Shown here one piece after another: positions 16,167 to 28,217 of a DNA stretch of 64,000 bases. The translations under genes and the position numbers were made by a program. The number at the start of each line of letters is the position of its first letter. Position 1 is the first letter of the stretch. The stretch is taken from positions 124,001 through 188,000 of IMG/VR virus record IMGVR_UViG_3300030329_004647; one strand, given 5' to 3'. Under the pieces are notes generated by a model. That model searched no databases. It had not been told where the DNA came from and was given only the letters and a program-made list of their open reading frames with translations. The stretch is from a virus.

Positions 16167-17068
16167 ACGCCTCTAAGATTTGGGTAGGTTTTTACAAAAT
16201 GTTCTATTGTTTCTTTTAAACCCACCTCTATAGGGGTAAATTTAAAGTCTGGTACGTAAGACATTAATTTTTTATTACAACTAGGTTTTCTAAATTGACC
16301 ATCTGGTTTGTCGTCTTGCCATACTACTTTACCATCAAAACCCATGTTATTCACTATCAAATCCACCAAATCTTTAATAGATATTTCGTGTGAGGTTGAA
16401 AAAATTATTGGTTCAGATTCATCGTAATTCTCTAAAGCCCAATTAGTTAACTTACCAATATCTTTTGCGTATATAAATTCTCTTAATGGTTTTCCAGAAC
16501 CCCAGACCTTAAAATCGGTATTATTTTTTTTAGCTAAATAACATTTGTGTATAAGTGACGGTATTACGTGTCCACTATCTAAATTAAAATTATCATTAAG
16601 ACCATATATGTTTGTAGGTATTACACTTACAAAATCTAACTTATACTGGTCTCTATATACTTCAGTTTGTACATCTAACATTCTTTTAGCATAGGCATAA
16701 CCATAATTAGAAGAATGGGGTGCCCCCAAGTGAATCTTTTTTTCTGTTAAAGGGTACTCCACTGAGTCGGGAAATATACAAGTAGACAGGAAAGAAACCA
16801 CTTTCTCTACTTTATATAATCTACAAGCTTCTAATACGTTAGTATTTATCATAATGTTATCATAAAAAAACTCTCCTTTAGCTTTCATATTCCCACCGAC
16901 ACCGCCAACTCTAGCAGCAGCATGAATTACGTGTGTTGGTCGATGAGTTTCAAATATCTTCTTTACATCTGACCACTTTCTTAAGTCACCATCTTTAGAC
17001 CCTAATTTTATTTCCGCGTCTATAGTTGAACCAACTAACCCACTTCCGCCTGTAATTAATCTTTTCAT
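16163..17068 (-). CDS. fcl: GDP-L-fucose synthase / ColC-type epimerase-reductase
   Basis: 301 residues from the ATG at 17068; an in-frame ATG at 17086 would add six residues. The inner start is preferred because it forms an ATGA overlap with the stop of the upstream gene and begins at the NADP strand MKRLITGGSGLVGS. The catalytic set is complete: Ser and Cys in FLSTCIFP, YxxxK in YGYAYAKRM, and the acid/base His in LDSGHVIPSL. PTNIYGLNDNFN is also family typical. The enzyme epimerises C3/C5 and reduces C4 of GDP-4-keto-6-deoxymannose to GDP-fucose; the ColC branch does the analogous step on the 3-deoxy intermediate. Context allows either or both. Confidence 0.9.
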   Translation of the reverse strand: MKRLITGGSGLVGSTIDAEIKLGSKDGDLRKWSDVKKIFETHRPTHVIHAAARVGGVGGNMKAKGEFFYDNIMINTNVLEACRLYKVEKVVSFLSTCIFPDSVEYPLTEKKIHLGAPHSSNYGYAYAKRMLDVQTEVYRDQYKLDFVSVIPTNIYGLNDNFNLDSGHVIPSLIHKCYLAKKNNTDFKVWGSGKPLREFIYAKDIGKLTNWALENYDESEPIIFSTSHEISIKDLVDLIVNNMGFDGKVVWQDDKPDGQFRKPSCNKKLMSYVPDFKFTPIEVGLKETIEHFVKTYPNLRGV

Positions 17069-18039
17069 TTTAATTTTTTTAACCAATCGTTTATCATGTC
17101 ATCCATCATAGTCTCAAAAGTATACTTAGGTTCCCAACCGAGTATTTTTTTAATTTTACTAGAGTCACCCTTTAAATGTTCTAACTCTTCAGGTCTATAA
17201 TATTTTTCATCAGTAACTACATAATCTCTCCAATCTAAATCCAGCTTACTAAAAACATATTCTACTAAATCTTTAACCGTATGAGACACACCCGTTGAAC
17301 ACACATAATCATCTGCTTTGTCATGTTGTAACATTAACCACATAGCTTCTACGTAGTCTTTTGCGTGACCCCAGTCTCTACTTGCATGTAAATTACCCAA
17401 ACTTAATTTATCAGTCAAACCAAGTTTTATTTTTACCGCTTCCTTAGCTACCTTTCCCGTAACAAAATTTGTGCCCCTTCTAGGTGATTCATGATTAAAA
17501 AGAATACCATTACACAAAAACATACCGTAAGAGTTACGATAATTTCTTACTAAATTATAACCATACACTTTTGCACACCCATATGGTGACACAGGATTTA
17601 ATGGGGTGGTTTCTCGTTGATACCCATCTTCATCTATGCTATTTCCAAACATTTCTGAACTACTAGCCTGATACATTTTAGACTTAGGAGATACTAATCT
17701 TATAGATTCTAGAAGATTTAAAGTTCCAGTAGCAATAGAGTGGGTGGTATATATGGGTTGGTCAAAGCTAATTCTAACATGTGATTGAGCTGCAAGATTA
17801 TATATCTCATCAGGTTCACACATCTGTAATACTCTAATTAAAGAGGCCATATCCAACATATCTGCGTATTCCAATCTTATTTTACCGTATACTTCTTTGG
17901 TTAGTCTAGCTGTTTGATTTTCAGCTACAGAATTTCTTTTTAAAATCCCCCAAACCTCATATCCTTTTTCTAATAAAAATTCTGCTAGATATGAACCATC
18001 CTGTCCATTTATTCCTGTTATTAATGCTACTTTACTCAT
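17065..18039 (-). CDS. gmd: GDP-mannose 4,6-dehydratase
   Basis: 324 residues. The NADP motif TGINGQDGSYLAEFLLEKGY is followed by AAQSHVRISFDQP, the active-site Ser/Glu strand QASSSEMFG, YxxxK in SPYGCAKVYGYN, FNHESPRRG and LGNLHASRDWGHAKDYVEAM. This is the full Gmd signature. It converts GDP-mannose to GDP-4-keto-6-deoxymannose, the branch point for GDP-fucose and GDP-colitose. It is shorter than bacterial Gmd (about 370) but the catalytic core is whole. Its TGA overlaps the ATG of the fucose synthase gene, so the two are coupled. Gmd is known in other viruses, for example chloroviruses. Confidence 0.93.
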   Translation of the reverse strand: MSKVALITGINGQDGSYLAEFLLEKGYEVWGILKRNSVAENQTARLTKEVYGKIRLEYADMLDMASLIRVLQMCEPDEIYNLAAQSHVRISFDQPIYTTHSIATGTLNLLESIRLVSPKSKMYQASSSEMFGNSIDEDGYQRETTPLNPVSPYGCAKVYGYNLVRNYRNSYGMFLCNGILFNHESPRRGTNFVTGKVAKEAVKIKLGLTDKLSLGNLHASRDWGHAKDYVEAMWLMLQHDKADDYVCSTGVSHTVKDLVEYVFSKLDLDWRDYVVTDEKYYRPEELEHLKGDSSKIKKILGWEPKYTFETMMDDMINDWLKKLK

Positions 18040-20877: not shown

Positions 20878-21213
20878 TTAATTACCTTTATACGCTCTAA
20901 TTGAATTTATTTTATTTTCAGAATCAAATGTGATAATATCCGTCACTAATAATGTGTCAGTTTCATTTATAACTACTTCTATTTCACAAGCAACAGTATT
21001 GTCTTCTTGAAACATTTTACTTGGTCTAACTTCCACAGACTCAACCGCTTCAAAAATTTGTTCATTTGATTTTATAACATTATCTAATCCTTTTGAATTA
21101 ACCTCCCAATCACGTAAATAACAATCTTCTGAAAGAAGTTTTCTTAATCCATCTAAATCTTGATTGGAAAAAGTTTTAAAGTAGGTTAAACATATATTTT
21201 TTAAATTGTCCAT
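20878..21213 (-). CDS. NTF2-like / SnoaL-like small protein
   Basis: 111 residues with the usual alpha/beta-cone order: helix CLTYFKTFSNQDLDGLRKLL, SEDCYLRDWEV strand, GLDNVIKSNEQIFEAVE helix, then strands VEVRPSKMFQ, NTVACEIEVVINE and TLLVTDIITFDSENKI. This fold serves as small-molecule isomerase or as a binding domain. Here it lies between a GatZ-like aldolase gene and glycosyltransferase genes, so a role on a sugar intermediate is possible. The start overlaps the end of the upstream gene by 13 bases. Confidence 0.65.
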   Translation of the reverse strand: MDNLKNICLTYFKTFSNQDLDGLRKLLSEDCYLRDWEVNSKGLDNVIKSNEQIFEAVESVEVRPSKMFQEDNTVACEIEVVINETDTLLVTDIITFDSENKINSIRAYKGN

Positions 21214-22193
21214 TCTATTAATTTTTTTATATGAGCTTTAATTTTTTCTTTAATGGTACCTTCCACTTCTCCAAGCTCACTTTTTAATGATAAAAATTTA
21301 TTATCAGATAGTACATAATGACCACATATTTCTACCAAAGTTTTTTTATTATCTTGAGGAATGAAATCTTCATTTACCCACTTTCTCCACCTATTAGATT
21401 CTAGACAAATTTCAAAAAATATTTCTTTTTGTTCTTCGTTCATTAATGAGTATAAAATAGTAGATTCTAACCGACCAAGTTCAGGAGCTATATTAATAGC
21501 GTCTAAACCATTTTGAAATCTAGATTGAAAATCTTTTTGAGATATATAATCCCCGTTATGTTCTTTGGATAGTAAATTAAATTTTTTTACTAAAGTAACC
21601 ATAGATAATAATTTATTCACATCATAAGTTCCTGTATTATGTGTTTCCTTTAATCCTGTTCCTGACTGTATAACACAAAATTTAATTTTAGAAAAAATAT
21701 TATCGGTTAGTTCTTTTTTAACCCTGGTCAACATATATGATATATCATCTAAAGAAAATGGACGTATACCCTCCTCGGTTCCTATCTCAAATAATATATT
21801 AGGATTTTGTTGGTGACAAAATTTAATTAAGTCTATAGTTTTATCTACCCCCTCCTTTATGTCTTTTATTTTTACCCAAGGGTCTATATGTATTAAATCT
21901 AAATATTTACAATCGTGGTTTAAAGAGTTATAACCATCGTCATCTTTATATCCTTGTCCAGGCCCTGCATGGTCCCGTTGCACTTCTATAAGATTAGTTT
22001 TAGATTTAATATAAGACATAAACTTTTCGGTTGTCCAGTTATTAACATAACCGCCGTCAAATTCTACCTGTCTTCTAGAAGGTATGAGTGTTATAATAGT
22101 TTGTAGTTCATTAGCTAATTCTATAGTGGAGTCCACTATATTTTTACTCATAGGTCCTACGTAAAGTTTTGCTGTTGTTGTATTGTTTTCCAT
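21201..22193 (-). CDS. GatZ/KbaZ-like TIM-barrel protein
   Basis: 330 residues. The order ITLIPSRRQVEFDGGYVN, NWTTEKFMSYIK, IEVQRDHAGPGQG, then KYLDLIHIDPWVK, ILFEIGTEEG and KFCVIQSGTG follows the family of D-tagatose-1,6-bisphosphate aldolase subunits (GatZ/KbaZ), in which the SNQV.Q.GGYTG and GGDHLGP loops stand at the same places. Members in surface-glycan clusters are thought to handle phosphosugars. The substrate here is unknown. The gene overlaps the kinase-nucleotidyltransferase gene by 37 bases, so the two likely act in one route. The call is from motif layout; confidence moderate. Confidence 0.6.
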   Translation of the reverse strand: MENNTTTAKLYVGPMSKNIVDSTIELANELQTIITLIPSRRQVEFDGGYVNNWTTEKFMSYIKSKTNLIEVQRDHAGPGQGYKDDDGYNSLNHDCKYLDLIHIDPWVKIKDIKEGVDKTIDLIKFCHQQNPNILFEIGTEEGIRPFSLDDISYMLTRVKKELTDNIFSKIKFCVIQSGTGLKETHNTGTYDVNKLLSMVTLVKKFNLLSKEHNGDYISQKDFQSRFQNGLDAINIAPELGRLESTILYSLMNEEQKEIFFEICLESNRWRKWVNEDFIPQDNKKTLVEICGHYVLSDNKFLSLKSELGEVEGTIKEKIKAHIKKLIEWTI

Positions 22194-23752
22194 AGATTGT
22201 ATTTTCCAAAGTAGTATAAGAATAAATCAAATGGATGATGATGTAAAGGAGACATGTTTAACCATATTATAGAAGTTAATATTTTTACCTTATCCAGGCT
22301 TAAATTTTTATCTAAAATAAATTGATGTAGTGTTTTTTCACACATAGATAATAAATGTCTACGATTTATATCACAATATATTTTGTCATCACCAATTTCT
22401 ATATTGAATAAATTATCATTAATAATATCATGATTAACAATTAAATTATGATTAAGTTTAGCTAAATCATAATGTATATCCCCTAATTTTAACTCTCCAC
22501 CAAAATCCTGCCTCCAATCTATTAAAGAAAAAGAACCATCCGATTTTTCTATAATATTCTCTAATATAAAATCTCCGTGAAAATAATTAGGTGAATTAAC
22601 ATTAGTTAGAATGTTTTTAACTAGTGATAGTTGGTATTTTACTGGTGGTATATACTCATCATTTATTATTTCTTCTTTATCTACTATATGTTGTTTTTTA
22701 ATTAAAGAATCTAATCGACTAATAGTTTTTTTAATGTAAAAATCTTCACAAATGTCTCTAAATTCATTTACTGATGGATAAATAACATTTTTATCCACAC
22801 CCTTAGACCATAGGTTAATATCAGTCCAGTTTAGTAAATCACTAAAACTTTTAGGTGTGACAGAACGTGAAAATAACTCACCCTCTACTAATTCGTATTT
22901 ATAGAAATTTTTAGTGCTGTCTATAATTTTAGGTACCGAATCCCCAAGAATAGAAGCTCTATCGACTCTTTTTTTAACAATATCTTTATTGTGGAAAAAT
23001 TTTATAACTTTATTATCTAAAATATAAATGGATTCATCTAACTTATCTAAAACATTTATTTCATTATTAATTACTTTTCTTGCTTTATTTAATGAAGATA
23101 CATTTCCTATGTCTTGCCATTTATGACATTCTTCTAAAACAAAACTATTTTTTTTCATCATTTTACTGTAGACATCACAATCAGATATGGAGTCATTAAC
23201 TCTATCCGTGTACACCTCATATAAACAAGACCAAAAATTTACATAGTCATTAATCCCAGCTACACCAACAAATTCATAATCATAGTTAAGTTCTCCTTTT
23301 TCATTAATTCTAGATATCTTAGAACCAGAAACATTTAATGTTCTATATTGAGAACTATTAATTTTTTTATGGCCAACAAGATAGTTTTTATTTGGGGTTA
23401 TATTTTGATAGTCTAAAATAGTATCACAAGCATGAAAAATAAAAGGACATTGTAAGTGATTTTTGGTTTGAAGCATCGAGTAAACCAAACTACTTCCTTT
23501 TCCAGAAAATACGTCAACCCACACAAATTGAAATTTTCTATCTGGGTATGCTAATTCTAAAAATTCTTTAACATGGTCACCAAAATGACCAAGGGTTATA
23601 ACAAACTCTACAGTTTTAGGGTAAGATTCTATTATATAAGATATAGCAGGTTTAGGACCGATTCTTACTAGAGATTTATTGGTAAAATTTGTTATTTCAC
23701 CTAATCTAGACCCCAATCCTGATGTTGTCAGTAATACCTTATACTCTTCCAT
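22157..23752 (-). CDS. Bifunctional sugar nucleotidyltransferase and APH-like kinase
   Basis: 531 residues. Residues 1-230 form an NTP-transferase domain: LLTTSGLGSRLGEITNFTNK with the pyrophosphorylase G-x-G-x-R loop and downstream Lys, FIFHACDTIL with the metal-binding Asp110, and FVGVAGINDY. Residues 245-531 form an aminoglycoside-phosphotransferase-type kinase: YFHGDFILENI (catalytic Asp394, Asn399) and LIDWRQDFGG (metal Asp412), then LGDIHYDLAKLNH. A kinase that phosphorylates an alcohol and a transferase that adds a nucleotide would together activate a small alcohol or sugar, as LicA and LicC do for choline in separate proteins. The substrate is unknown; the adjacent GatZ-like protein may make it. 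Confidence 0.8.
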   Translation of the reverse strand: MEEYKVLLTTSGLGSRLGEITNFTNKSLVRIGPKPAISYIIESYPKTVEFVITLGHFGDHVKEFLELAYPDRKFQFVWVDVFSGKGSSLVYSMLQTKNHLQCPFIFHACDTILDYQNITPNKNYLVGHKKINSSQYRTLNVSGSKISRINEKGELNYDYEFVGVAGINDYVNFWSCLYEVYTDRVNDSISDCDVYSKMMKKNSFVLEECHKWQDIGNVSSLNKARKVINNEINVLDKLDESIYILDNKVIKFFHNKDIVKKRVDRASILGDSVPKIIDSTKNFYKYELVEGELFSRSVTPKSFSDLLNWTDINLWSKGVDKNVIYPSVNEFRDICEDFYIKKTISRLDSLIKKQHIVDKEEIINDEYIPPVKYQLSLVKNILTNVNSPNYFHGDFILENIIEKSDGSFSLIDWRQDFGGELKLGDIHYDLAKLNHNLIVNHDIINDNLFNIEIGDDKIYCDINRRHLLSMCEKTLHQFILDKNLSLDKVKILTSIIWLNMSPLHHHPFDLFLYYFGKYNLWKTIQQQQNFT

Positions 23753-24086
23753 AATTATCCTCTAATCGTACGATATCGTCCTCCCCAAAATACTCACCCC
23801 ATTGAACCTCAATGAAAATCATATCATTACTACTATTATTAATAGGTCTATGCTTATCACCAACAGGAACTAAAATAGTACTACCGACAGTGACCTCAAT
23901 AACTTCATCATTAAGAATAACTTGTCCCGAACCCTGTACTACTGTCCACACTTCATTTCTTTTGTGGTGATATTGGTAACTTGGGGCACCGCCAGGTTTA
24001 ATAACTATTCTTTTAACTTTACAATAATCACAATCTAATAAATTTTCAAAAGTACCCCACGGTCTTTCTTCATTGTAGTTTTTCAT
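23739..24086 (-). CDS. Stand-alone cupin, type II phosphomannose isomerase-like
   Basis: 115 residues. It matches the cupin domain found at the end of ManC/AlgA-type proteins: RPWGTFENL at the start, VKRIVIKPGGAPSYQYHHKRNEVWTVV with the metal-binding His pair and Glu, VPVGDKHRPINN, and IEVQWGEYFGEDDIVRLEDNYGR at the end. In the bifunctional enzymes this domain converts fructose-6-phosphate to mannose-6-phosphate, the first step toward GDP-mannose. Here it stands alone and overlaps the upstream HAD gene by 4 bases and the downstream gene by 14. It could feed the gmd route. A different sugar isomerase specificity is possible. Confidence 0.8.
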   Translation of the reverse strand: MKNYNEERPWGTFENLLDCDYCKVKRIVIKPGGAPSYQYHHKRNEVWTVVQGSGQVILNDEVIEVTVGSTILVPVGDKHRPINNSSNDMIFIEVQWGEYFGEDDIVRLEDNYGRV

Positions 24087-24451
24087 ATTTTTAAATCTTT
24101 TATACCTTCAGTATTACGTCTTAAATTAACTGCAAAGGCAGTACCAGTCCTACCATCTTCCTTCATGTCGTTTATCAAATATCTTACTCCACCACCAAAA
24201 CCCATGACTAGTTGGTCATAAATTATTCCAGCTTCTGACAATTGTTGTTCAGTTTGTTTTCTAGCGGTATTTCTTCTACCAGTAGTTAAAACAATATGGT
24301 ATCCCTTTTTTTCCCATTCTAAAAGCTTCTCAATGGTTCCAGGGAGAGGTTCCATTTTAGCATTAGGTTTTGTAGCCTCACTAGGTAACATATGTTTAAC
24401 CAATGTACCATCTATATCACAAAATATTGTTTTAGGTCTATTTTCACTCAT
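24083..24451 (-). CDS. HAD-family sugar phosphatase-like protein
   Basis: 122 residues. Motif I is FCDIDGTLVKH (nucleophile Asp and general-acid Asp present), motif II is VLTTGR and the rest is a small alpha/beta unit ending in YLINDMKEDGRTGTAF. Length and layout fit the small capless HAD proteins seen in capsule and LPS clusters. Dephosphorylation of a sugar phosphate is likely. It lies between a RfbH-like dehydratase and the cupin isomerase with overlaps or near-contacts, so it should be co-translated with them. Confidence 0.75.
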   Translation of the reverse strand: MSENRPKTIFCDIDGTLVKHMLPSEATKPNAKMEPLPGTIEKLLEWEKKGYHIVLTTGRRNTARKQTEQQLSEAGIIYDQLVMGFGGGVRYLINDMKEDGRTGTAFAVNLRRNTEGIKDLKI

Positions 24452-25820: not shown

Positions 25821-26549
25821 TTATTTATTTATACAATCTTTATATCTTTCTAACGGTAACGCATTTTCTTTTTCTATATCTGCCCAAGAAAAGAAATTAA
25901 AATGTTTATGTTTTTCATCCATCCCAATCCAAAACTCAGCTTGATGTCTGTAGTCAAGTATAAAATTTTCTGGATTGATAATCCAGTCAATCGTAGGTAG
26001 TTTTGAAAGATATTCAGCATTTGCCCACCATATATTTCCAGAGTAGTGAGGCACATAGTCTTCGTATCCATCCCTCATATCTTTATTCCAGTTAGCACCA
26101 CAACTATCGTGGGTTTCTAATTTTTCTATACACTTTAAAAAGTTTTCTATTGAAAAATAAAAATGCATATTTCTTCTATCCATCATTTTTGGGTCATTCC
26201 AGTTCCAAGTGGACACGGATAAAGTTTGTGTGTATAAAACCTTATAATCTTTATTATTATCTACAAAATCTCTAAGTAATCTTAGGGTTGGCAATTCATA
26301 GTCTAATAAATTACCCACTCTAGTTATTTTATAGTTGTCAAAATTAAGTAAATGTTCTGGAAAGGGTAGGTCCCCAACAACATTAAAATGTACATAATCT
26401 ATGTAGTCAAATAAGCCAGATTTATTACCTTTTTCGACTATATCTTTAATTATTCTTTCATAAGTCGTGTTATATGCATGATTATTACCAATTACTGGAG
26501 TTGCAACATGCATAAACATAACCGCTTTATTATTCTTCATATTTATCAT
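25821..26549 (-). CDS. Glycan-modifying protein, glycosyltransferase-like
   Basis: 242 residues. The second half reads DSCGANW, HYSGNIWWANAEYLSKLP, IDWI and HQAEFWIGMDEKHKHFN, a string found in a group of capsule or LPS glycosyltransferase-like proteins, where the line is HYxGNFWWAxAxYI. The N-terminal half is alpha/beta with KAVMFMHVATPVIGNNHAYN. The enzyme family number is not certain. Two starts are possible, at 26549 or three codons later; the first overlaps the cupin gene by 20 bases. Confidence 0.55.
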   Translation of the reverse strand: MINMKNNKAVMFMHVATPVIGNNHAYNTTYERIIKDIVEKGNKSGLFDYIDYVHFNVVGDLPFPEHLLNFDNYKITRVGNLLDYELPTLRLLRDFVDNNKDYKVLYTQTLSVSTWNWNDPKMMDRRNMHFYFSIENFLKCIEKLETHDSCGANWNKDMRDGYEDYVPHYSGNIWWANAEYLSKLPTIDWIINPENFILDYRHQAEFWIGMDEKHKHFNFFSWADIEKENALPLERYKDCINK

Positions 26550-26850
26550 TTTTTACACAAGGTGTTTTTACCACAACTGTGGTAACATGAGTTAAACATT
26601 TAAAGTCCGTACTTTCACCTGGTTTTATTACTATTATATCATCCGCCGAATATTCCACCCCATTCATCTCGACCACACCATCAACTATTACAGTAAATTC
26701 CGTAGCCACCTTATGAGTGTGTCTTTTTTCTACAGCACCCTCTAAATACCTTTTAACTGCCACCTCAAAGTCTTGAGTTTTATAAAGGCTAGGTTCAAAG
26801 TCACCCACAAACCAACCCTTAATCATTTCATTTAAATTATGTTTTTCCAT
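26530..26850 (-). CDS. Small cupin protein
   Basis: 106 residues, one double-stranded beta-helix domain. Metal-site pattern: VEKRHTHKVATEFTVIVDGVVEM supplies two His and a Glu, and VIKPGESTDFKCLTHVTTVVVKTP supplies the final His. Cupins in sugar clusters are isomerases, epimerases or binding proteins; no specific type can be read. It lies between the HAD-nucleotidyltransferase and a glycosyltransferase-like gene, sharing one base with the former and 20 with the latter. Confidence 0.7.
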   Translation of the reverse strand: MEKHNLNEMIKGWFVGDFEPSLYKTQDFEVAVKRYLEGAVEKRHTHKVATEFTVIVDGVVEMNGVEYSADDIIVIKPGESTDFKCLTHVTTVVVKTPCVKNDKYEE

Positions 26851-28217
26851 TAGTATTTATGATTTTCTAAAAATTTATTTAAATCTTCTGGTGTTCCTAA
26901 TCCCCACATTTTTTTAGTGTGAAACGTCTTTATTTTTTTACCATCCTCTATAGCTTCATTATATATTGGACAAACATAAAATTCATTGTTTATTCTTAAG
27001 TCTTTTTCAATCATTTGTTCACCATATCTTACATAATCAGAACCCTTTGACCAATAGTATATACCCACCGTAGCGATATTACTTATTGGCTTTTTTTCTG
27101 CAACTTCAGATACATACCCATCATTATCTAGTTTAGCAAAACTCCATTTTGGATGAGTTGCGGTAAAAGATAAAATACCACCATCAATTTCATCTGCCAT
27201 CATAGAGTACATAAACTCATTAGAATCCCACTCCACAAACTGGTCAGAGTTTGCTATTAATAAAGGTTCATCATTATTTATAAATTCTTTAGCTAATAAA
27301 GTTGTACATGCTGCACCTTCTGTTACCCCATCAACCTGAACTATTTCACAACCAGGTGTAATAAGGTTTAGTAAGTGTTTTAAGTTATACTTTTCATAGT
27401 GTGATTTTTGAACAATGTATATGTGACGTGCATCAATATTTAAATTTTCAGTCACTACTTGAATCATAGGTTTATTATTAACTTCTATCAGTGGTTTAGG
27501 GAAAGTATACCCAGCTTTTTCAAATCTAGAACCTGCTCCTGCCATAGGGATTAAAACATTCATTTTTCCACCTTGCCACTTAGGTATAATAGCACCGTTA
27601 TTATGTTTGTCTAAATGTTCATTAATTTTTTCGTATGTAACATCTTCACAGTCTTTAACCGCACATAAATGACCTCCACTTTCTACCGCTCCCTTTCTAC
27701 CGTGATGAGAATCCTCAATAATAAGAGTTTGTTTTGGTGACACACCAAAATGTAACATACATTTCATGTACATTTCAGGATGTGGTTTAGGTTTAATAAC
27801 ATCTTGATTCGTGTATAGAACATCTATGTGTTCCATAAACCCTTTTCTAATTAGTTGTAATTTTGCTGTTTCTCTAATTGAATTAGTACAACAAGCTATC
27901 TGATATCCTGAATCTTTTAATCTTCTTAGAATGTCTTTAATTCTAAAATCTTGTGAAAATTTATCTATAATAGATACGGTTTTTTCTTGTTTAAGTTTCC
28001 ATACTATGTTATGAACATCCTTTGATAGTCCTTTTGAGGATGTTAACATTTCTAATTTTTTTGTGGTAGATAACCCATCATATGTAGATAGGTGTTCATC
28101 TCTGGAAATGATAAACTTTTCATCTATGGTTTCTAAAGCTTTATTTAAAGCTTCGTAATGTAATTCTCTAGCGTTTACTAAAACACCATCTAAGTCAAAT
28201 ATAATTAATTTAATCAT
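26850..28217 (-). CDS. Bifunctional HAD phosphatase and sugar nucleotidyltransferase
   Basis: 455 residues. Residues 1-205 are a HAD domain of the beta-phosphoglucomutase type: IIFDLDGVLVNARELHYEAL (Asp8, Asp10), ACCTNSIRE, KPKPHPEMYMKC and IIEDSHHG. Residues 219-455 are a nucleotidyltransferase: MNVLIPMAGAGSRFEKAGYT with the phosphate loop, PKPLIEVNNKPM, and LLIANSDQFVEW with the metal Asp. The fusion could shift a phosphate group and then add a nucleotide, or remove a blocking phosphate. Substrate unknown. It is followed, after a 62-base gap, by the first of two fucosyltransferase-like genes lying upstream in the transcript; the gap carries a short A/T-rich hairpin. Confidence 0.85.
   Translation of the reverse strand: MIKLIIFDLDGVLVNARELHYEALNKALETIDEKFIISRDEHLSTYDGLSTTKKLEMLTSSKGLSKDVHNIVWKLKQEKTVSIIDKFSQDFRIKDILRRLKDSGYQIACCTNSIRETAKLQLIRKGFMEHIDVLYTNQDVIKPKPHPEMYMKCMLHFGVSPKQTLIIEDSHHGRKGAVESGGHLCAVKDCEDVTYEKINEHLDKHNNGAIIPKWQGGKMNVLIPMAGAGSRFEKAGYTFPKPLIEVNNKPMIQVVTENLNIDARHIYIVQKSHYEKYNLKHLLNLITPGCEIVQVDGVTEGAACTTLLAKEFINNDEPLLIANSDQFVEWDSNEFMYSMMADEIDGGILSFTATHPKWSFAKLDNDGYVSEVAEKKPISNIATVGIYYWSKGSDYVRYGEQMIEKDLRINNEFYVCPIYNEAIEDGKKIKTFHTKKMWGLGTPEDLNKFLENHKY

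Follow-up and report, generated by a model that had tools for sequence, protein, structure and literature searches.

A putative nucleotide-sugar cassette of a large phage that pairs a GatZ-like protein with a nucleotidyltransferase-kinase fusion

Introduction

This work concerns five overlapping genes at positions 20878-24451 of a stretch of 64,000 nucleotides (the window) from the virus record IMGVR_UViG_3300030329_004647, among which a GatZ-like triosephosphate isomerase (TIM) barrel protein is encoded next to a fusion of a nucleotidyltransferase and an APH-type kinase. On balance, we favor the view that these genes form a nucleotide-sugar cassette, in which an epimerase or aldolase, an isomerase, a phosphatase, a C1 kinase and a nucleotidyltransferase would supply a nucleoside diphosphate (NDP) sugar for a glycan. 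To our knowledge, no function has been assigned to this cassette before, and no paper on the pairing of the GatZ-like protein with the fusion was found in the open-access text of PubMed Central (PMC).

Several described systems resemble the locus in part. In the GDP- and ADP-heptose pathways (GmhA, HddA/HldE, GmhB, HddC) an isomerase, a C1 kinase, a HAD phosphatase and a nucleotidyltransferase act on a ketose phosphate, and the phage genes encode a comparable set; the heptose kinases, however, have the GHMP/PfkB fold and a GatZ-like step is absent there. LicA/LicC and PntC (phosphocholine and phosphonate cytidylyltransferases) share the nucleotidyltransferase fold but use alcohol or phosphonate substrates, and we know of no epimerase, isomerase or phosphatase partners for them. 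The recycling of N-acetylmuramic acid (MurNAc) to UDP-MurNAc by MupP, AmgK and MurU likewise combines a HAD phosphatase, a C1 kinase (AmgK, of the APH family) and a nucleotidyltransferase, with the same chemistry as is predicted here. Unlike in the phage, where kinase and nucleotidyltransferase are one protein, these enzymes are separate, have no epimerase or cupin and salvage a known sugar; that the HAD phosphatase acts first, the anomeric kinase second and the nucleotidyltransferase last has been established for this pathway (PMC5371407). For phage RB69 a role of the ORF53c/52c module in UDP-arabinose synthesis was proposed (PMC6024577). This module (ORF055c, ORF53c-52c, ORF051c; all gene functions being proposals) comprises an aldose-ketose phosphate isomerase, remote homologs of the nucleotidyltransferase and kinase and a small HAD-like protein, but it has a SIS isomerase instead of a cupin, no GatZ-like protein, and its sugar is placed on DNA.

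The GatZ-like protein itself is best compared with GatZ and KbaZ of Escherichia coli. Both were formerly seen as aldolase chaperones and are now reported to epimerize C4, converting fructose-6-phosphate to tagatose-6-phosphate (PMC11907403). Modeling of GatZ placed zinc on H88, H257 and E171 with D87 as base, and C20, E44 and K279 were described as family-specific (PMC11907403). The phage proteins share the TIM-barrel fold and all zinc and base residues with the GatZ/KbaZ family (PF08013, TIGR02810; the E. coli tagatose pathway). They are however only about 14-16% identical to it, differ at E44, K279, C20 and S47, and are tied to NDP-sugar genes, whereas those of E. coli are tied to genes of the phosphotransferase system (PTS) and GatY. 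The first-pass annotation of the locus had spoken of an unknown activation route; in kind, the route is partly familiar from the RB69 module and the MupP-AmgK-MurU logic.

Results

Organization of the Cassette and Proposed Route

The window comes from a virus record of 232,028 bases, that of a large phage whose DNA polymerase has distant relatives in phages of Salinibacter and Nostoc/Anabaena. At 11.8-36.8 kb its minus strand carries a long gene block dense in sugar genes, some of them named by eye from the sequence: a UDP-glucose-dehydrogenase-like gene, short-chain dehydrogenase/reductase genes, sugar aminotransferases, GT10-, GT25- and GT2/GT4-like transferases and a GMD-like gene (17065-18039). 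Inside this block, from 24451 down to 20878, five genes follow each other with overlaps of 4, 14, 37 and 13 nt:

24083..24451, minus strand: HAD phosphatase, 122 residues; matches several HAD families, probable sugar-phosphate phosphatase
23739..24086, minus strand: cupin, 115 residues; by its MannoseP_isomer and GMP_PMI scores a probable aldose-ketose phosphate isomerase
22157..23752, minus strand: nucleotidyltransferase-kinase fusion, 531 residues; assigned by profile, structure model and invariant motifs
21201..22193, minus strand: stand-alone GatZ-fold metal-dependent TIM barrel, 330 residues; assigned by model fold and conserved residues
20878..21213, minus strand: NTF2/SnoaL-like protein, 111 residues; assigned by SnoaL_2 score, an occasional member (perhaps isomerase, dehydratase or binding partner)

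The overlap of the last three genes had been noted in the first-pass annotation, with the NTF2-like open reading frame lying just outside the range given there (21201-23752).

In the proposed route the GatZ-like enzyme alone, with a bound divalent metal, would open the bond between C3 and C4 of a ketose phosphate and close it again, which could either epimerize C4, the reaction of E. coli GatZ, or amount to a net aldol addition. The new ketose phosphate would be turned into an aldose phosphate by the cupin, and the HAD protein would take off the terminal phosphate. The free sugar would then be phosphorylated at C1 by the kinase half, and the nucleotidyltransferase half would couple the sugar-1-phosphate to a nucleotide. 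Lastly, a glycosyltransferase of the same gene block would transfer the sugar to a glycan of the virion or of the infected cell. We infer the catalytic steps and their order as well as substrate, nucleotide and acceptor. A glycan as destination had already been suggested and agrees with the surrounding glycosyltransferase and NDP-sugar genes (GMD, GT10, GT25 and sugar aminotransferase genes lie nearby).

Conservation of the Gene Pairing

The pairing of the two enzymes recurs in well over 100 viral loci. With the GatZ-like protein as query, 64 viral loci besides the window were found (41-56% identity); all 64 also encode the fusion, in the same orientation and, almost without exception, as the direct neighbor or one gene further on. 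For the reverse search the best 80 of 381 viral fusion matches were taken, and in 77 of these 80 a GatZ-like gene lies no more than 4 kb away; a cupin match was likewise present in 77. With co-occurrence in 64/64 and 77/80 loci the pairing is not due to chance. A HAD gene accompanies the pair in 56 of the 64 loci, and a cupin is found as a separate gene in 37 and as the N-terminal part of the fusion protein in 22. The NTF2-like protein is present in five of the 64 loci, two of them with NTF2 fusions, and in eight of the best 80 of the reverse set. The GatZ-like protein, the fusion and the NTF2-like protein had been regarded as a trio, which was dropped as a unit: NTF2 occurs in about 8-10% of loci, and the far more constant HAD phosphatase and cupin in most. 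The co-occurrence expected for the trio thus holds in viruses for the GatZ-like protein with the fusion and only occasionally for NTF2. The cassette itself is real and strongly conserved and its families are well supported, each reaction being a prediction.

Nucleotidyltransferase-Kinase Fusion

The fusion combines an N-terminal sugar-1-phosphate-type nucleotidyltransferase (residues ~1-230) with a C-terminal APH-type kinase (~235-531). Its single-sequence Pfam scores are weak (NTP_transferase, PF00483, 20.5 bits with a cut-off of 21.2 and 37 bits for one relative; APH, PF01636, about 16.1-17.7 bits, under the cut-off of 23.2), and profiles and structure models were therefore used. The profile matched LicC/RmlA-type nucleotidyltransferase structures with E-values of 1e-11 to 6e-12, and the structure model, with a predicted local distance difference test (pLDDT) score of 92, gave the same nucleotidyltransferase matches, MurU structures being among those found by Foldseek. 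Nineteen of 20 kinase halves matched APH at E<0.1 (best E 1.2e-7).

Invariant in 31 relatives are G12/G14/R16, K26, D110 and D214 of the nucleotidyltransferase half (GxGxR...K and two acidic metal sites) and H392-G393-D394, N399 and D412 of the kinase half (the APH catalytic motif HGDxxxxN plus Asp). Toward its end, the nucleotidyltransferase domain has a W-x-D-x-G element, a feature of sugar-1-phosphate enzymes, which is invariant as well. The earlier description of a 531-residue fusion of pyrophosphorylase and APH-type kinase was thereby confirmed, and its reading as an activation unit appears well founded. Of the two kinds of substrate then considered, a sugar is favored over an alcohol, because the genes that accompany the fusion encode epimerases, isomerases interconverting aldoses and ketoses, and phosphatases of sugar phosphates.

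The GatZ-like Protein

In Pfam the GatZ-like protein scored 13.6 bits with GatZ_KbaZ-like (PF08013), short of the cut-off of 26.7, and 13 of 33 relatives matched the family at E<0.1; a PDB sequence search with the single protein gave no match. An AlphaFold model based on 33 sequences (pLDDT 95) found GatZ-family structures as its best PDB matches (3txv, E 2e-14; 2fiq, E 5e-14; range to 7e-13), followed by class II aldolases, and the GatZ-type TIM barrel that had been recognized at 21201-22193 is thus corroborated.

For the comparison of active sites, 64 viral and 63 bacterial relatives were used, and the residue numbering was verified against the E. coli GatZ sequence. D74, H75, E140 and H212 of the window protein correspond to D87, H88, E171 and H257 of GatZ. 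D87, H88 and H257 are invariant in all viral and bacterial proteins, and the position of E171 is occupied by Glu in 64/64 viral and 61/63 bacterial sequences and by Asp in the other two. S47 is replaced by Arg across the relatives, once by Lys. As the metal and base residues are constant and E44, K279 and C20 are replaced, the metal chemistry is probably kept, with a substrate or outcome different from that of GatZ.

Sub-cut-off scores and the missing family-specific residues rule out membership in PF08013/TIGR02810, distant bacterial members reaching at most 53 bits with a cut-off of 568.8. By these sequence measures, the phage proteins are a sister family of GatZ. The GatZ-like protein is unlikely to chaperone a class II aldolase, because the 232-kb record contains no such aldolase (PF01116); in the loci read, no GatY-like gene was noticed.

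Weighing of the Proposed Reactions

Five observations weigh against the proposed cassette. E44 is exchanged for Ile or Leu and K279 for Asn in 127/127 proteins and C20 for Gly in 124/127, and since these are the residues reported as specific to GatZ/KbaZ, the reaction may differ from that of GatZ. The kinase half is only remotely related to solved kinases (best E 0.0026), so that it is the partner genes which point to C1 of a sugar as its target. The top structural and profile match of the nucleotidyltransferase half is LicC (1jyk), a phosphocholine enzyme. HAD and cupin are missing from some loci. Finally, the alphaproteobacterial fusions L242 and L243 have a shikimate-dehydrogenase homolog alongside and no GatZ.

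The LicC match, together with a weak Choline_kinase match of one kinase half, would fit a LicA-LicC-like kinase and cytidylyltransferase, which would produce a CDP-alcohol (choline, ethanolamine, glycerol) from a precursor supplied or cleaved by the GatZ-like protein. We regard this as improbable: the full-length RmlA-type structure 3hl3 matched almost equally (E 1.3e-11 vs. 5.9e-12), the W-x-D-x-G element is invariant as in sugar-1-phosphate enzymes, and the isomerase, epimerase, transketolase and sugar-phosphate-type HAD partners have no evident use for an alcohol.

The substituted residues also bear on the question whether the GatZ-like protein is a true aldolase, which would condense a C3 unit with a small aldehyde and so make a new sugar with a branch or a longer chain, to be activated later by the fusion, similar to the logic of 3-deoxy-D-manno-octulosonate (KDO) synthesis with TIM-barrel condensation, HAD phosphatase and nucleotidyltransferase. 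The residues which set GatZ epimerases apart from aldolases are absent, the small HAD is replaced by KdsC-type phosphatases in several cassettes and among PDB entries the profile matches best to 8q57 (E 1.4e-5), a class II aldolase of sulfofructose phosphate. However, E44, K279 and C20 became Ile/Leu, Asn and Gly, which are not residues reported for class II aldolases; the nearest fold is that of GatZ, an epimerase; and the substitute front end of L218 and L226 (see below) includes an epimerase. A true aldolase is therefore rather unlikely. C4 epimerization is the first choice for the GatZ-like enzyme, because its fold relative performs it and an epimerase takes its place elsewhere, and net aldol addition would be the main alternative; fructose-6-phosphate, xylulose-5-phosphate and sedoheptulose-7-phosphate are all candidate substrates. 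The label aldolase of the first-pass annotation is accordingly one option among others, since C4 epimerization of ketose phosphates has been reported for both E. coli proteins, GatZ and KbaZ.

Exchangeable Front End and Related Phage Modules

Three of the best 80 viral fusions have no GatZ-like gene (L218, L219, L226), L219 being a short stretch. In L218 and L226 a ribulose-phosphate 3-epimerase (187 and 92 bits) and a SIS isomerase (39 bits each) are encoded just upstream of the fusion and a KdsC-type HAD directly after it; L226 additionally has a split transketolase before the fusion. From this gene order, the place of GatZ-like protein and cupin is taken by an epimerase and an aldose-ketose isomerase. 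We regard these exceptions as the strongest pointer to function. The gene rows L226:548-5913 and L218:3-3314 resemble a complete phage route to an activated pentose, e.g., D-arabinose.

Related modules occur in other phages. RB69 ORF53c and ORF52c, which are flanked by the gene of an arabinose-5-phosphate isomerase and by a small HAD-like gene, align with the two halves of the fusion (pairwise hhalign E 9e-7 and 7e-7; probability 91-92%); the product of the small gene is 15% identical to the window HAD, with the Asp residues kept. A "GlmU" of Chryseobacterium phage MA9V-2, encoded near a KpsF/GutQ isomerase, has a kinase half related to that of the window, as has a protein of Enterococcus phage 9183 which is encoded directly downstream of a small HAD and near a thymidylate synthase. 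The window cassette contains no SIS gene and has the cupin in its place. By analogy, a common logic would lead from ketose phosphate to aldose phosphate, free aldose, aldose-1-phosphate and NDP-aldose.

The RB69 homologs, which belong to a module for arabinosylated hydroxymethylcytosine (ara-hmC), and the thymidylate synthase of phage 9183 could also indicate that the activated sugar hypermodifies phage DNA, like the RB69 arabinose, rather than a surface glycan. This is highly doubtful, as the 232-kb record, which is possibly incomplete, contains no gene of the thymidylate synthase/dCMP hydroxymethylase family (PF00303), and the cassette is situated within a glycosyltransferase/NDP-sugar block, with sugar genes also near many related loci.

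Cupin, HAD, NTF2 and Shikimate-Dehydrogenase Homologs

The cupin scored 92.5 bits with MannoseP_isomer (PF01050; cut-off 23.6) and 98.6 bits with the GMP_PMI C-terminal domain. It resembles the C-terminal isomerase domain of mannose-1-phosphate guanylyltransferase/phosphomannose isomerase (type II phosphomannose isomerase kind), and of its metal site H40, E45 and H79 are invariant in 20 relatives and Q38 is conserved in at least 90%. In the HAD protein D12, D14 and D95 are invariant and also kept in the proteins of Enterococcus phage 9183 and RB69. The identity of the NTF2-like protein was confirmed with SnoaL_2 (35.3 bits, above the 27-bit cut-off). The domain forms a C-terminal extension of the GatZ-like protein in L007 and L013. 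In L243, an alphaproteobacterial contig, it is fused with a phosphatase of the KdsC type, and that gene belongs to the same run as a nucleotidyltransferase-kinase fusion gene.

All 22 loci with a fused cupin encode a shikimate-dehydrogenase homolog (PF08501, up to 69 bits), which is also present in two loci with truncated fusions. Of the 39 loci in which the full-length fusion has no cupin joined to it, only a single one encodes the homolog. The S-x-P-x-K and N-T/L-D elements are retained in almost all of the 27 sequences compared. The gene for a compact form (~205 residues) separates the fusion gene from the GatZ-like gene, with hardly an exception in loci whose cupin is part of the kinase protein (L003, L012, L018, L021, L023, L025, L027, L035-L037, L042-L046, L053, L055, L058, L062). 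Often a C-methyltransferase-type gene (~378 residues) lies next to or near the GatZ-like gene (L014, L016, L019, L020, L022, L087, L092, L093, L101), which suggests that some products are methylated.

Families, fold, catalytic residues, linkage and a replaceable front end are evident from sequence or structure. A broader proposal is more tentative. There may be a new nucleotide-sugar route, carried chiefly by phages, in which a stand-alone GatZ sister family would set or build the carbon skeleton of the sugar through a metal-dependent retro-aldol reaction, activation being left to a nucleotidyltransferase-kinase with or without a cupin. Its front end might be exchangeable (GatZ and cupin, ribulose-phosphate epimerase and SIS isomerase, or shikimate-dehydrogenase homolog), and the shikimate-dehydrogenase subtype might yield something other than a plain aldose, e.g., a reduced, acidic or carbocyclic product. 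If true, this would give a biosynthetic context to the GatZ sister family, whose nearest named relatives are still misleadingly labeled "non-catalytic subunit". It would also link the front ends by which phages supply one type of nucleotidyltransferase-kinase, with the RB69 arabinose as a possible relative, and, if the sugar is rare, would mean a new glycan decoration made by aquatic phages. As the pathway is compact, with four or five small proteins, the product sugar would be accessible by in vitro reconstitution.

Distribution beyond Phages

Close to moderate relatives of the cassette were found in contigs assigned to Alphaproteobacteria, Flavobacteriaceae, Gribaldobacteria, Bacteriovoracaceae, Actinomycetota, Pelagibacteraceae and an archaeon (L073, L078, L079, L086, L087, L092, L093, L096, L101); some of these contigs of metagenome-assembled genomes may be viral in origin. 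Among 289 genomes sampled from the class of L101, four had a fusion match, one of them to the kinase half only. In two of the four the fusion adjoins a full-length shikimate-dehydrogenase homolog, and no GatZ-like gene was seen on the available contig.

The 13 genomes with a GatZ-like gene on its own, flavobacterial with few exceptions, contained no full fusion, one giving a weak nucleotidyltransferase-only match. Nor was a fusion found in four genomes whose distant GatZ-like genes lie in a PTS, sulfoquinovose-isomerase-like or aminotransferase context. A general co-inheritance of both genes in bacteria thus fails (0/13 plus 0/4), and the neighbor search in bacteria which had been suggested earlier yielded relatives of the cassette in several contigs. 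Since bacterial genomes carry the GatZ-like gene without the fusion, the family also has other uses; in phages at least, the fusion requires a front end, whereas the GatZ-like protein does not require the fusion.

The GatZ-like family is present without the fusion in marine Flavobacteria, in Firmicutes within fructose-type PTS operons and in actinobacterial cupin/aminotransferase/HAD clusters. The stand-alone proteins of marine Flavobacteria (L066-L072, L074-L077, L080, L082) are ~45-51% identical to the phage protein and mostly encoded at a chromosomal position that is itself conserved; no fusion, HAD or cupin goes with them. In Firmicutes and bee-gut Gammaproteobacteria, fructose-type PTS operons contain the GatZ-like gene on its own (L095, L098-L100, L105, L119, L142 and others), several continuing with a transketolase or HAD gene, an apparent ketose catabolism. 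In Clostridia (L111, L117, L135) a gene for ~483 residues directly precedes the GatZ-like gene; its product in L111 is like sulfoquinovose isomerase (156 bits, far under the cut-off), with a GmhB-like phosphatase upstream. The actinobacterial loci L090 and L097 combine a distant GatZ-like gene with a DegT aminotransferase and a HAD, L097 also with a cupin and an exporter, and an amino-sugar natural product is possible for both.

A second activation-type fusion of a HAD phosphatase and a nucleotidyltransferase (455 residues) is encoded in the window at 26850-28217, with an adjoining cupin gene at 26530-26850. Its homologs again occur near the GatZ cassette in several loci.

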